Below are positions 562 to 9,122 of a stretch of DNA of 64,000 bases, one piece after another. This DNA comes from Bacteroidales bacterium (lineage in GTDB: Bacteria; Bacteroidota; Bacteroidia; Bacteroidales; VadinHA17): NCBI GenBank assembly GCA_011620595.1, contig WOYX01000040.1:1-64000 (forward strand), written 5' to 3'. A program made the translations under genes and the position numbers. The notes beneath the pieces were generated by a model. That model worked only from the letters and a program-made list of their open reading frames with translations, was not told the DNA's origin and ran no database searches. Within the stretch, counting starts at the first letter, position 1. Every line of letters starts with the position of its first letter.

Positions 562-869
562 AACACCCCTTGACACGGAAACGGCGACCGGGAAGCCCGA
601 GAATCAGCACGAGGCAACTGGCTATTCACTGAATAATCAGAAAAAGGACGGCTCGTAATAGTGAGACTGACTGAATTTTATTAAGATGAAACTTACATGA
701 GAAGTAACTCACAAATGGGAATGAATATTTTGTTACATGTAAGTTCCATTCGACCAATGAAATAATAATGAAATAATCGAATAAAACATGATGAATATGC
801 TTTTTTTTCTCTCCGGCTTTCTGTTAATTTCGCCCTATATCCCTGAAATACTTTAATAACAATCATATT
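562..869. other. Intergenic region with one 65-bp palindromic repeat
   Basis: No gene is visible in these 308 bases. The only structure I can support is the 65-bp palindromic element at 686-750, listed separately. The rest, between the element and gcvP, is AT-rich and probably holds the gcvP promoter, but I find no convincing -7 box. I looked for a tandem glycine riboswitch before gcvP and did not see one. Confidence 0.5.
686..750 (+). repeat. 65-bp palindromic dispersed repeat, copy 1
   Basis: The element begins ATGAAACTTACATG and ends CATGTAAGTTCCATT, so its ends form a 14-bp inverted repeat with one A/C mismatch around a loop of about 36 bases. A second copy lies at 9058-9122 in reverse orientation; I count 55 of 65 positions identical, with both arms fully conserved and most changes in the loop. 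The copy ends 119 bases before the gcvP start. The compact palindromic form resembles a REP or MITE-like element; mobility is inferred, not shown. Confidence 0.75.
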
Positions 870-3761
870 ATGACCACCGATAACTTTGTTGACCGTCACA
901 TCGGGCCGCGCGAGAGCGATGCCGCTGAGATGTGCAAAACCATTGGAGTAGATACAGCGGAGCAGCTGATAGAGCAGACCGTTCCGGCTTCTATAAGGCT
1001 TGACAGGCCTCTTAACCTGCCTCCGGCGATGAGTGAGCAGGAGTATCTCTCGCACCTCAGGAAACTGGGCAGTCTCAACAAGCAGTACCGCTCTTTTATC
1101 GGGCAGGGTTATTACGGTGTGGCGGTGCCGCCGGTGATAGTGCGCAACGTACTGGAGAATCCTGCATGGTATACTTCATATACTCCCTACCAGGCTGAGA
1201 TATCGCAGGGCAGGCTGGAGGCACTGCTCAACTTCCAGACCATGGTGACAAGCCTCACGGCCATGGATATTGCCAATGCGTCACTCCTTGATGAAGCCAC
1301 TGCCGCCGGCGAGGCCATGCTAATGATGTTCGGCGCCCGGTCGAGGGAGAAGGTAAAGGCTGGCGCAAACCGTTTCCTGGTTGATAACTCGGTCTTTCCG
1401 CAGACGCGTGCCGTGCTCATCACCCGTGCTGCACCCATGGGAATAAAGATAGAGTTTGCCGACTATGCAGGTTTTGAGGCTGATGACACTGTTTTCGGGC
1501 TGCTGGTTCAGTACCCGTCTGCCAGCGGTGAGATCCGCGACTACCGTGAGATGGTCGAAAAAGCACATGGTGCCGGGGCGCTGGTGGCAGTGGGTGCCGA
1601 CCTGATGAGTCTCGCCCTGCTGATGCCTCCCGGGGAGTGGGGGGCTGACATAGTATACGGATCCAACCAGCGTTTCGGGCTGCCGATGAGTTACGGCGGT
1701 CCTCATGCCGGCTTCTTCGCCACCAGGGATGAGCTGAAGCGCAGCATGCCGGGCCGCATCATAGGCGTCTCCGTTGACGTGCACGGCAACCATGCACTGC
1801 GCATGGCCCTGCAGACACGCGAGCAGCATATAAAGCGTGAGCGTGCCACCTCCAACATATGTACCGCCCAGGCACTGCTGGCAACCATGTCAGGGATGTA
1901 TGCCCAGTATCACGGTCCGGAAGGCATCAGACGCATAGCCATGCATATCTTCTCCACGGCATGTACACTTGCGAAGGCACTGCGCGAGCTGGGATATACC
2001 ATAAGGCATGACCAGTTCTTCGATACAATACGTGTCCAGGCTGTCCCGGGCGTCACTGCCGACATGATTGAAAAGATCGCGCTGGGCAAGGGCATAAATC
2101 TCTGGTACCAGTGCGGCAACTGCGCAGTCATAAGCACGGATGAACTCACGACGCTGAAAGAGATAAATGACATTGTCTCCGTCTTTGCCGAGGTGGCTGG
2201 CAAAGAGGCAGAGGAGGTGACAGATCTCTGTGACTGCTTTTGCATAGACGATAAATTCAAGCGTACCTCGCCATACCTGCAGGAGCGCACCTTCAACAGC
2301 TATCACAGTGAGACAGATATGATGCGCTACATCAAGATGCTGGAGCGCAAGGATTTCTCGCTGGCCAACGGCATGATACCGCTGGGATCATGCACCATGA
2401 AGCTAAACCCTGCGGCCTCCATGTTTGCCATGAGCTGGCCGGAGTTTGCGAACATACATCCGTTTGTCCCTGCCAGCCAGGCTGAGGGGTATCACAGGCT
2501 GATGGAGGAGCTTGGTGAGGCGCTTAAGGAGATCACCGGTTTTGATGCGGTCTCGTTCCAGCCCAACTCCGGCGCTGCGGGAGAATATACCGGGCTGATG
2601 GTCATCAGGCAGTATCACATAAGCCGTAACGAGGGGCACCGCAATGTAGTGCTGATACCCTCCTCGGCTCACGGCACCAACCCGGCAAGCGCGGCCATGG
2701 CAGGTAATAAGGTGGTTGTGGTGGAGTGCGATGAACATGGTAATATCAGTGTTGAAGATCTCAGGAAGAAGGCAGTTGAGAACCGTGACAGCCTCAGTGC
2801 CGCTATGATCACCTATCCTTCAACGCACGGTGTGTTTGAAGAGGCCATCGTGGAGATGACAGGCATAATCCATGAGAACGGCGGACTGGTCTACATGGAC
2901 GGCGCCAACATGAATGCACAGGTAGGACTTACAAGTCCCGGTCACATAGGAGCCGACGTCTGCCACCTTAACCTGCACAAGACCTTTGCCATCCCTCACG
3001 GCGGTGGCGGACCGGGCATGGGACCCATACTCTGCAACAGCAGGCTGGCAGAGTTTCTTCCATCGCATCCGGTGGTGAAGACCGGTGGCAGTCATGGTAT
3101 TACCGCGGTTGCGGCAGCGCCGTTCGGCAGCGCTCACATACTGACCATCAGCCATGCCTATGTGATGATGCTTGGCGCTGAAGGATTGACGAAATCAACG
3201 GTATATGCCATCCTCAACGCCAACTACCTGGCAGCCGCACTGGGGGACATGTATAAGGTGCTTTACACAGGTGCCAACAACCGCTGTGCGCACGAGATGA
3301 TCCTTGACTGCCGGGGCTTCAAAGATGCCGGTGTGGATGAGTCTGATATAGCCAAGAGGCTCATGGATTACGGTTTTCATGCACCTACTCTGTCATTCCC
3401 TGTGCACGGCACCCTGATGGTTGAACCGACAGAGTCGGAGCCAAAGGCAGAGCTCGACAGGTTCATTGATGCCATGAGAAGCATATGGCAGGAGATTGAG
3501 GAGATAAGGAAAGGCAAGGCAGACAGGGAGGATAACGTGCTTAAGAATGCACCCCATACGGCCGCATCGGTAATCTCCGACGGGTGGAGTCATTCCTATC
3601 AGCGCGGGAAAGCCGCCTATCCGCTGCCATGGATCGCCGAGAATAAATTCTGGCCTTCTGTTGGCAGGGTTGACAACGGTTACGGAGACCGCAACCTCGT
3701 CTGCTCATGTGCACCCATCGATTCGTACAGATTCGAAACGCTGAGCTTCGGTAAGGAATAA
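870..3761 (+). CDS. gcvP: Glycine dehydrogenase (decarboxylating), P-protein
   Basis: This is the PLP-dependent P-protein of the glycine cleavage system, which decarboxylates glycine and passes the aminomethyl group to lipoyl-H protein in the cytoplasm. At 963 residues it is the usual full-length fused form with both the N- and C-terminal halves, as in E. coli, rather than the split gcvPA/gcvPB form. The start is supported by the family opening FVDRHIGPRE. The PLP lysine is K704 in the motif NLHKTFAIPHGGGGPGMGP, and the glycine-rich GSCTMKLNP motif lies in the middle. No gcvT or gcvH is adjacent, so the partners are encoded elsewhere. The gene stands alone, preceded by a 65-bp repeat and followed by a hairpin. 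Confidence 0.97.
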   Translation: MTTDNFVDRHIGPRESDAAEMCKTIGVDTAEQLIEQTVPASIRLDRPLNLPPAMSEQEYLSHLRKLGSLNKQYRSFIGQGYYGVAVPPVIVRNVLENPAWYTSYTPYQAEISQGRLEALLNFQTMVTSLTAMDIANASLLDEATAAGEAMLMMFGARSREKVKAGANRFLVDNSVFPQTRAVLITRAAPMGIKIEFADYAGFEADDTVFGLLVQYPSASGEIRDYREMVEKAHGAGALVAVGADLMSLALLMPPGEWGADIVYGSNQRFGLPMSYGGPHAGFFATRDELKRSMPGRIIGVSVDVHGNHALRMALQTREQHIKRERATSNICTAQALLATMSGMYAQYHGPEGIRRIAMHIFSTACTLAKALRELGYTIRHDQFFDTIRVQAVPGVTADMIEKIALGKGINLWYQCGNCAVISTDELTTLKEINDIVSVFAEVAGKEAEEVTDLCDCFCIDDKFKRTSPYLQERTFNSYHSETDMMRYIKMLERKDFSLANGMIPLGSCTMKLNPAASMFAMSWPEFANIHPFVPASQAEGYHRLMEELGEALKEITGFDAVSFQPNSGAAGEYTGLMVIRQYHISRNEGHRNVVLIPSSAHGTNPASAAMAGNKVVVVECDEHGNISVEDLRKKAVENRDSLSAAMITYPSTHGVFEEAIVEMTGIIHENGGLVYMDGANMNAQVGLTSPGHIGADVCHLNLHKTFAIPHGGGGPGMGPILCNSRLAEFLPSHPVVKTGGSHGITAVAAAPFGSAHILTISHAYVMMLGAEGLTKSTVYAILNANYLAAALGDMYKVLYTGANNRCAHEMILDCRGFKDAGVDESDIAKRLMDYGFHAPTLSFPVHGTLMVEPTESEPKAELDRFIDAMRSIWQEIEEIRKGKADREDNVLKNAPHTAASVISDGWSHSYQRGKAAYPLPWIAENKFWPSVGRVDNGYGDRNLVCSCAPIDSYRFETLSFGKE

Positions 3762-8058: not shown

Positions 8059-9027
8059 TCAGAAGAGATCTTCTATCACCATTGAATAGAGTTCGGTCTG
8101 CGAGATGCCATACACCGCGGCCTGCTTGGGAAGAATGCTCTCGGGCGTCATCCCCGGAATCGTATTTATCTCGAGGAACTGAGGCCCGTCGGGTGTGATT
8201 ATGAAGTCGACCCTCACAATACCCTTGCAGCCCAGCAGGTCACATATCTCTGAGGAGAGCTCCTGTATCCTTTTTGTCATCTCGTCAGGAAGCCGTGCCG
8301 GGGTGATCTCTTCTGAGAAACCTTCGGTATATTTTGCCTCATAGTCGAAAAACTCCTTTTTCGGAACCACCTCAGTAACGGGCATCACTATCTTTTTGTT
8401 TTTGGTCTTAACGACGCCGCAAGCCACCTCGGTGCCCGGCATGAATGATTCTACCAGCACCTCATCTCCCTCTGTCAGTGCTGCCTCCATTGCAGTAGCA
8501 AATTCGCCCACCTCCTTCACCTTTGTCACGCCGAAGCTGGAACCGCTGGCATTGGGCTTGACGAAACAGGGCAGTCCGATCTCTGTAGCTATTCTTTCAG
8601 CATCATACCGTTGTCCTTTCCTGATCAGCAGTCCGCCGGTCATGGGTATCCCGTATTCGAAGAGGTACAGTTTGCAGGCCTGCTTGTTGAAAGTCAGTGC
8701 CGACACGAAGGAGCTGCAACTGGAATAGGGTATCCCAATCATGTCAAAGTAACCCTGCAGGAGCCCGTCCTCACCCGGGGTCCCGTGAATGGCAATGAAG
8801 GCGGCATCAAACCTGACCCTGCCGTCATCGGGCAACAGTGAGAAGTCATTCTTGTCTATGCTGAAAATCCGTCCCTTCGGGTCTTCCCAGTACCAGTCGA
8901 TCCCCCTGACTGTTATGATGTAGGTTTCATATCTCCCTTTCAGTGCCGAGGCAACACTCTCGGCACTTCTGACTGACACTGGGTATTCGGATGAATTTCC
9001 CCCGGCAATGATGGCAATAGTTTTCAT
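8059..9027 (-). CDS. ddl: D-alanine--D-alanine ligase
   Basis: A 322-residue ATP-grasp ligase that forms D-Ala-D-Ala for peptidoglycan precursors in the cytoplasm. Visible signatures are the N-terminal AGGNSSEYPVS (the glutamate binds the first D-Ala), HGTPGEDGLLQGYFD, the ATP-binding KPNASGSSFGV, the tyrosine region FFDYEAKYTEG, and the metal-binding VRVDFIITPDGPQFLEINTIPGMT. Length and order match the Bacteroidota type. It converges with the trehalose gene (48-base gap) and faces lemA across 322 bases. A 65-bp palindromic repeat ends 30 bases upstream of its start. In many relatives ddl sits beside the rluD and PASTA genes; here a plus-strand insert separates them. Confidence 0.96.
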   Translation of the reverse strand: MKTIAIIAGGNSSEYPVSVRSAESVASALKGRYETYIITVRGIDWYWEDPKGRIFSIDKNDFSLLPDDGRVRFDAAFIAIHGTPGEDGLLQGYFDMIGIPYSSCSSFVSALTFNKQACKLYLFEYGIPMTGGLLIRKGQRYDAERIATEIGLPCFVKPNASGSSFGVTKVKEVGEFATAMEAALTEGDEVLVESFMPGTEVACGVVKTKNKKIVMPVTEVVPKKEFFDYEAKYTEGFSEEITPARLPDEMTKRIQELSSEICDLLGCKGIVRVDFIITPDGPQFLEINTIPGMTPESILPKQAAVYGISQTELYSMVIEDLF

Positions 9028-9057
9028 TAGATAATATATTTATTGTTTCATAGGTCT

Positions 9058-9122
9058 AATGGAACTTACATGTAGTAAAACAATCATTTTCTTTTGCGGG
9101 TTACTGCTCATGTAAGTTTCAT
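9058..9122 (-). repeat. 65-bp palindromic dispersed repeat, copy 2
   Basis: On the minus strand this matches the element at 686-750 (55 of 65 positions). Both copies keep the same single A/C mismatch in the arms; on the opposite strand that pair becomes a G-U wobble, so that strand's RNA could fold into a complete stem. Relative to the downstream gene (ddl here, gcvP for copy 1) both copies point the same way. Confidence 0.75.

Follow-up and report, generated by a model that had tools for sequence, protein, structure and literature searches.

A palindromic repeat upstream of gcvP and ddl in a Bacteroidales genome: a probable non-autonomous mobile element with an ATGAA target

What does a palindromic sequence do that stands, in two copies, upstream of two genes that we take to be gcvP and ddl (these and the other gene names used here are presumed from sequence families)? 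The question arises from a preliminary description of a 64,000-nucleotide stretch of a Bacteroidales genome (hereafter, the window; contig WOYX01000040.1, positions 1 to 64,000), in which a 65-bp sequence was reported to recur in inverted form with fully conserved arms. The comparison of 686-750 with the reverse complement of 9058-9122 indeed yields 55 identical positions of 65, the runner-up ungapped match to 686-750 within the window being 35/65, and the arms of stem P1 are identical between the two copies. The preliminary description is also right that both copies have the same orientation relative to the downstream gene, and that 119 and 30 bases separate them from the start of gcvP and of ddl, respectively. 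The element is longer than first reported, as the similarity runs approximately 35 bases past the 65 bp (82/101 for 686-786 compared with 9022-9122); its length is approximately 95 bp (plus strand, 686-780; minus strand, 9028-9122; Table 1), and the right end of the ddl copy falls exactly at the start codon, its last base being followed by ATGAAA. Comparison of the copies suggests that this is probably a non-autonomous mobile element with the target ATGAA, moved in trans.

Table 1. Positions of the two element copies, their stems and the adjacent genes in the window.
Feature	Position	Strand	Comment
Element copy A, ~95 bp, upstream of gcvP	686..780	+	BLAST and covariance-model match 686-786
Copy A, stem P1, left arm ATGAAACTTACATG	686..699	+	
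Copy A, stem P1, right arm CATGTAAGTTCCAT	736..749	+	
Copy A, stem P4, left side CATTCG, CAT common to P1	747..752	+	
Copy A, stem P4, right side, ATG reads ATA	778..783	+	
Copy A, terminal target hexamer ATAAAA (most copies ATGAAA)	781..786	+	
gcvP-like ORF, 963 aa; start 89 nt past the start of the copy A terminal hexamer	870..3761	+	
Element copy B, ~95 bp, directly upstream of ddl	9028..9122	-	BLAST and covariance model
Copy B, stem P1, left arm	9109..9122	-	
Copy B, stem P1, right arm	9059..9072	-	
Copy B, stem P4, left side CATTAG	9056..9061	-	
Copy B, stem P4, right side CTAATG; ATG is the ddl start codon	9025..9030	-	
Target hexamer ATGAAA, ddl codons 1-2	9022..9027	-	Empty site in relative G021
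ddl-like ORF, 322 aa	8059..9027	-	

When the whole 3.08-Mb genome (G000) was searched by BLAST with a 115-base query, 47 matches had E<=10, and for 42 of these E was below 3e-5. The covariance model constructed from 40 copies gave 98 matches at E<=1, of which 78, all forward, were kept; the 20 dropped rows were three isolated weak matches and 17 opposite-strand matches lying on a copy, the latter being due to the palindromic nature of the element. Such a genome-wide search had been proposed in the preliminary description, and the numerous copies with compensating changes envisaged there are present.

Of the 78 copies, 44 have their right end exactly at an ATG that begins a frame of at least 80 aa, and for two more this frame is 69-76 aa long; the script count of 48/78 at starts includes four inexact cases, three with non-ATG codons and one with the start 5 nt downstream. 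The remaining rows, classified by eye, are six copies followed directly by another copy, five in nested pairs, and 17 that are neither, the gcvP copy with its ATAAAA being among these non-start copies. The copies in contigs C9 and C49 share their flanks and the downstream gene start, and possibly represent a single place that was assembled twice. The background was estimated from non-coding ATGAAA hexamers, for which the ratio of start to other positions is 8:14 for the window and, in 20 of 60 stretches of genome G180, 64:83, compared with 50:17 for element copies in this genome by a looser count (odds ratios 5.1 and 3.8, respectively); the strict count of 46:21 gives, by hand, an odds ratio of about 2.8 relative to G180. 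This excess over the background indicates that the hexamer itself does not fully account for the preference for, or retention at, start codons.

The structure was analyzed using an alignment of 87 copies, 20 of which were chosen by hand from this genome, while the other 67 were mostly picked by a filter that demanded an ATGAAAC-like left end, GTTCCAT and ATGA, so that these letters are conserved partly because of how the rows were selected. Stems were tested by column, P1 being positions 1-13/66-78, P2 14-17/27-30, and P4 79-81/108-110. The stem cells are paired in 82.1% of cases, compared with 74.2% in shuffled alignments, cells changed on both sides number 164 compared with 68.7, and the covariation score is 0.222 compared with 0.102 in shuffles and at most 0.062 in slid versions; two other measures, the number of pairs changed on both sides (8 compared with 6.5, 42/500) and of further pair types (25 compared with 24.9, 302/500), are not clearly above shuffles. 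Judging by these columns, P1 and P4 covary. In full, P4 is formed by CATxxG paired with CxxATG, whose ATG belongs to the target, and the most frequent P4 combinations (n=112) are CAG/CTG (47), CCG/CGG (12), TAG/CTA and TCG/CGA (9 each), and CTG/CAG (6), while among 40 BLAST-picked copies of this genome TCG/CGA (19) and TAG/CTA (6) were counted. The CAT of P4 is also the partner of the first ATG in P1, and thus both ends of the element would compete for one motif. Extension of P1 by the base preceding the element gave no consistent pairing.

The A/C pair in the arms, G/T on the opposite strand, that had been noted in the preliminary description proved real: at position 4 of P1, A-C was found in 37 of the 40 BLAST-picked copies, the other three having A-T, T-C and G-C, and in all 87 rows of the wider alignment, partly by construction, as the C of this pair is demanded by the filter that picked most of the 67 rows. 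Apart from this position, wobble pairs of the sense-strand G-T kind are found 11, 15 and 9 times in P1, P2 and P4, respectively, and those of the opposite-strand kind 14, 38 and 12 times, a weak lean towards the opposite strand; tandem G-A mismatches, present in many arms where other copies have T-A pairs, suit the sense strand better. As RNA, the 65-nt window copies are predicted to fold better on the opposite strand (-20.3 and -21.2 compared with -11.9 and -15.6 kcal/mol). As DNA, over 100-109 nt, the strands are close; among the five elements tried, P1 together with P4 is predicted in both window copies and in L413, while the folds of L297 and L279 lack P4, and that of L297 is no better than shuffles. 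No Rfam family matched above its gathering score in six loci; at a relaxed threshold six loci gave five matches, all below the gathering score, two of them over copies. The inner frame seen in this genome, considered as a candidate leader peptide, was rejected: in 47 of the 87 rows the first frame stops after four codons, in the others it stops at other lengths or never, and the inner-loop lengths are not multiples of three.

The fixed place before genes, the sense orientation, the conserved stems, the start codon included in P4 and the enrichment at starts would all be expected of an immobile, conserved cis-regulatory RNA leader of a regulon, and a shared regulatory RNA was one of the suggestions of the preliminary description. 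Orthologous genes of relatives speak against it. For 12 genes with a copy and eight genomes of the same genus, 96 comparisons gave 12 cases without data, 27 with the element and 57 without. All 27 filled ones belong to genomes G004, G020 and G021, and the other five relatives have none at the 12 genes; G002, G009, G012 and G015 have 3, 19, 1 and 7 model matches, respectively, elsewhere in the genome. Clean empty sites were found for ddl in G021, cysS and hlyD in G004, AKR in G020, and lytTR in both G020 and G004; in each of them the left flank joins the start codon directly, so the orthologous empty sites put the insertion point directly before the start ATG.

Moreover, three copies (contigs C24, C16 and C29) are inserted at an internal ATGAAA-like site of another copy, the remainder of which follows, and identical copies occur at unrelated places (see below). 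In the loci of the genome_contigs collection, 67 of 168 copies stand at the start of a frame of at least 60 aa, two lie at the locus edge, and 99 do neither, tandem copies included. The preceded genes look unrelated, with no common function seen, contrary to the expectation that under regulation copies would stand before certain genes only. The regulatory leader is thus contradicted as the full explanation and, as such, is very improbable, while regulation as a by-product of insertion is possible.

As to the mobile element, comparison of sequences shows insertion at ATGAA(A) in a single orientation and, insofar as the ATGA common to element and target permits a decision, 5' of this motif. All 14 copies of genome G069 have ATGAAA as the target. 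In the genome_contigs set, from which 21 copies preceding another copy were left out, 89 of the remaining 91 have ATGAA; both larger target sets, this one and that from the present genome, were anchored on ATGA by script. Across the sets, ATGAA is the only clearly conserved flank. In G069 (loci L408-L421), T stands just before ATGAAA in 13 of 14 copies, a preference absent from the other two sets.

In the empty alleles, ddl and hlyD have ATGAAA, cysS (G004) has ATGGAA, and AKR (G020) and lytTR (G020 and G004) have ATGCAA. Hence three of the five clean empty sites are not ATGAA, and at those the pre-insertion hexamer cannot be read directly; together with the two covariation measures close to shuffles, this slightly lowers our confidence in the mobile-element reading. 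In the E2 gene, seven of seven orthologues read ATGAGA, while the left end of the element is ATGAAA in most copies; the left copy of the motif is thus the element's own, with no longer target duplication.

The family is widespread. In the genome_contigs collection at least 116 stretches matched the DNA pattern, and the 80 records listed are assigned by name to Bacteroidales, Bacteroidetes, Bacteroidota, Sphingobacteriia (one MAG), Anaerophaga, Thermophagus, Marinilabilia and Geofilum. A second model, with 20 candidates scored per genome and accordingly low copy counts, recognized the family in 49 of the 197 genomes sampled from the order. In the genus, 15 of 22 genomes match, with 80, 92, 92 and 74 matches in G000, G004, G020 and G021, respectively, opposite-strand matches included. 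Among 23 viral stretches that matched one exact pattern, none had the element structure, and no plasmid or phage record matched the window copy.

Copies close to identity are found in G069, where seven of 36 are identical over 100 bases, and 16 are at least 97% alike (one over 86 bases only); the identical ones lie at different places and have different flanks. Copies 98% alike were also found on different contigs of Thermophagus (L323 and L276) and of Anaerophaga Valhall (L331 and L292); such likeness points to recent movement. Among 21 G069 copies with script-readable ends, 13 open at least 80 aa at ATG, and two more do so at a changed codon. One young copy (L473, contig C67), shortened by a small deletion close to its right end, still directly precedes an ATGAAA opening a long frame. 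None of the 36 places in G069 contains an internal gene that would indicate an autonomous parent; contig C5 there has a weak partial match (72% over 1-81). Two right ends without a clear left arm (L335 and L301) were examined, and no long element was found at either.

At genes, the start codon and the protein are kept, the element becoming the last 95 nt of the leader, and its A+T-rich tail may then serve as the new translation start region. Insertions at start codons may be tolerated or kept because the tail supplies this region. The sense orientation, the enrichment at starts beyond the ATGAAA background and the tandem G-A pairs of the sense strand could also be produced by an RNA route, in which the leader RNA is reverse-transcribed and inserted at start codons. 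Young G069 copies also stand at ATGAAA opening just 6-11 codons, and the peptide frames are not conserved, which leaves this route scarcely credible.

The favoured route for the mobile element, though somewhat less likely than not, is transfer as a single strand in the manner of IS200/IS605. On the opposite strand the target is TTCAT, and the element would begin just 3' of it and end in GTTTCAT; one internal ATGG, just 5' of P1, could pair both with the TTCAT side and with the GTTTCAT end. As in IS200/IS605 and their non-autonomous derivatives, PATEs, there are a 4-5 nt target on one side, ends predicted to fold and no ordinary target duplication, and the fixed target of that family has its counterpart in ATGAA (TTCAT on the opposite strand), although some empty alleles of relatives differ. 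According to passages of PMC6006769, the hairpin foot of IS200/IS605 is preceded on its 5' side by a short motif that can base-pair with the cleavage sites. In contrast to them, the single guide-like motif of the element would, by the predicted pairing, serve both ends, the element is only about 95 bp long with no gene-bearing copy seen, and several element-rich genomes lack Y1 transposases; genomes with young copies do not consistently carry this enzyme, contrary to what such a route would lead one to expect.

In particular, no Y1 transposase (PF01797) was found in the assemblies, not closed, of G000, G020, G021, G180 and Geofilum, and G069 has only a partial match inside a 1270-aa frame. The domain is present in eight of 22 genomes of the genus, in seven of the eight genomes behind the named loci (Geofilum being the exception), and in 13 of 14 element-bearing genomes of the order, G180 being the one without it. 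Only two of 65 Y1 loci have an element, one each, at approximately 0.4 and 0.9 kb from the domain, and none has elements on both sides. The two single copies, which belong to two genomes (L388, 2273-2370, and L434, 467-558), could reflect either chance or a link.

These two loci and the Bacteroidetes' own TnpA-REP subclass 2.6, for which passages of PMC6006769 describe atypical flanking structures, agree with another explanation, a REP-type palindrome moved by a RAYT/TnpA-REP transposase; so do the hairpin with a conserved short foot motif on the opposite strand, the many intergenic copies and the tandem arrays, as REP/REPIN are likewise high-copy intergenic palindromes, also in tandem arrays, and thought to be moved in trans. 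Unlike them, the element stands at ATGAA, in this genome mostly at start codons, and no clear linked transposase was found; among the 65 Y1 loci there is no RAYT gene flanked by copies. The foot motif is ATGG/CCAT, with no GTAG/CGTC tag of the kind given for REPs in passages of PMC3733652. The absence of Y1 from G000, G020, G021 and G180 likewise stands against this explanation, as does a locus of Thermophagus xiamenensis (L390), where the palindrome flanking the transposase gene is a different one. We consider it quite improbable.

The gene in L390 (1246-1788, minus strand) encodes a 180-aa Y1/TnpA-REP-like protein, and is flanked on both sides by the palindrome gttgtggatt..aatccacaac, with which it likely forms a RAYT-REP pair. 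It resembles subclass 2.6, as far as this subclass is characterized in passages of PMC6006769.

The third route to be weighed involves a tyrosine recombinase acting in the manner of integron cassettes, on a folded hairpin strand and a short target, with ATGAAA as the crossover core. The element shares with integron attC sites an imperfect palindrome, tandem arrays, a fixed orientation and AAC/GTT in the arms of P1, and it has ATGAA(A) at both ends. The genome encodes, in addition to XerC and XerD, a third, IntI/XerA-like, recombinase, and a tandem element pair (C41:4712-4903) lies approximately 1.6 kb beyond the frame upstream of its gene. Still, an IntI-like gene (>400 bits) is present in 11 of 22 genomes of the genus, this one included, in a pattern that does not track copy number: it is absent from G004 and G021, with 92 and 74 matches, and present in G007, G013 and G017, which have zero. 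No element was found in IntI-like loci L077-L088, within up to approximately 1.5 kb on each side. The attC boxes have the consensus RYYYAAC ... GTTRRRY, which the outer arm bases of ATGAAAC ... GTTCCAT do not fit. No cassette genes were seen, the target is ATGAA, and ATGAGA in E2 means that identity of all six bases is not needed. All this makes the recombinase route unlikely. The recombinase gene itself (L047, 1425-3111, minus strand, contig C41) is preceded by an overlapping frame that contains a repeat-rich stretch and a run of N.

The element also resembles DDE-type MITEs in being small, present in many copies and provided with an inverted repeat. Unlike in MITEs, its inverted repeat is inside one part of the element, the outer ends ATGAAACTT.. 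and ..AATCGA, by inspection, not being inverted repeats of each other, and there is no duplication beyond the shared ATGA. Of the MITE/REP idea put forward in the preliminary description, the dispersed mobile repeat stands, while the classical MITE and, as tested, the known REP/RAYT pairs do not. No description of the element was found in open-licence papers, and the matches listed for element strings in that literature look unrelated by title.

Taken together, we see somewhat less than even chances that this is a new, minimal class of mobile elements that has colonized start codons in Bacteroidales, brings its own translation start region, uses one motif to recognize both ends and the target by mutually exclusive pairing of ATG, and relies for its movement on an enzyme that belongs to none of the known Y1, DDE and integron types. 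Mobile elements often harm the gene that they hit or land between genes. Here the element lands on start codons of presumed housekeeping-type genes, leaving the protein unchanged and replacing the leader. The paired filled and empty leaders are thus natural material for measuring translation start in these bacteria, and the element points to a mobilising enzyme that acts in trans. If the single-motif pairing model is true, this would make the element a self-guided insertion module of unusually small size.

The orientation of copies relative to replication was considered in G180, a 5.26-Mb contig whose GC-skew sign changes, with exceptions, near 2.0 Mb. Of 23 copies (10 from the order survey and 13 added from 15 good matches, two of which were already among the 10, three weak ones being left out), 14 are in the lagging-strand orientation, compared with 44% of genes (one-sided p 0.07, hand count). 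Among copies with at least 57 bits, a cut chosen after seeing the data of this one genome, 10 of 13 are so oriented (p 0.016; p 0.09 against one half), which gives only a hint of a lagging-strand bias such as would be expected of IS200/IS605-derived elements.

Finally, similar-looking elements with other arm sequences are found in ddl of G004 (L123), PNP of G009 (L178) and fhs of G007 (L154); by eye, they stand at the same start codons as copies described here, which suggests several parallel families. Copies in L377, L359, L311, L280 and L322 end at near-identical sequences starting with ATGAATCCTCATTAA, perhaps another dispersed repeat serving as a target.
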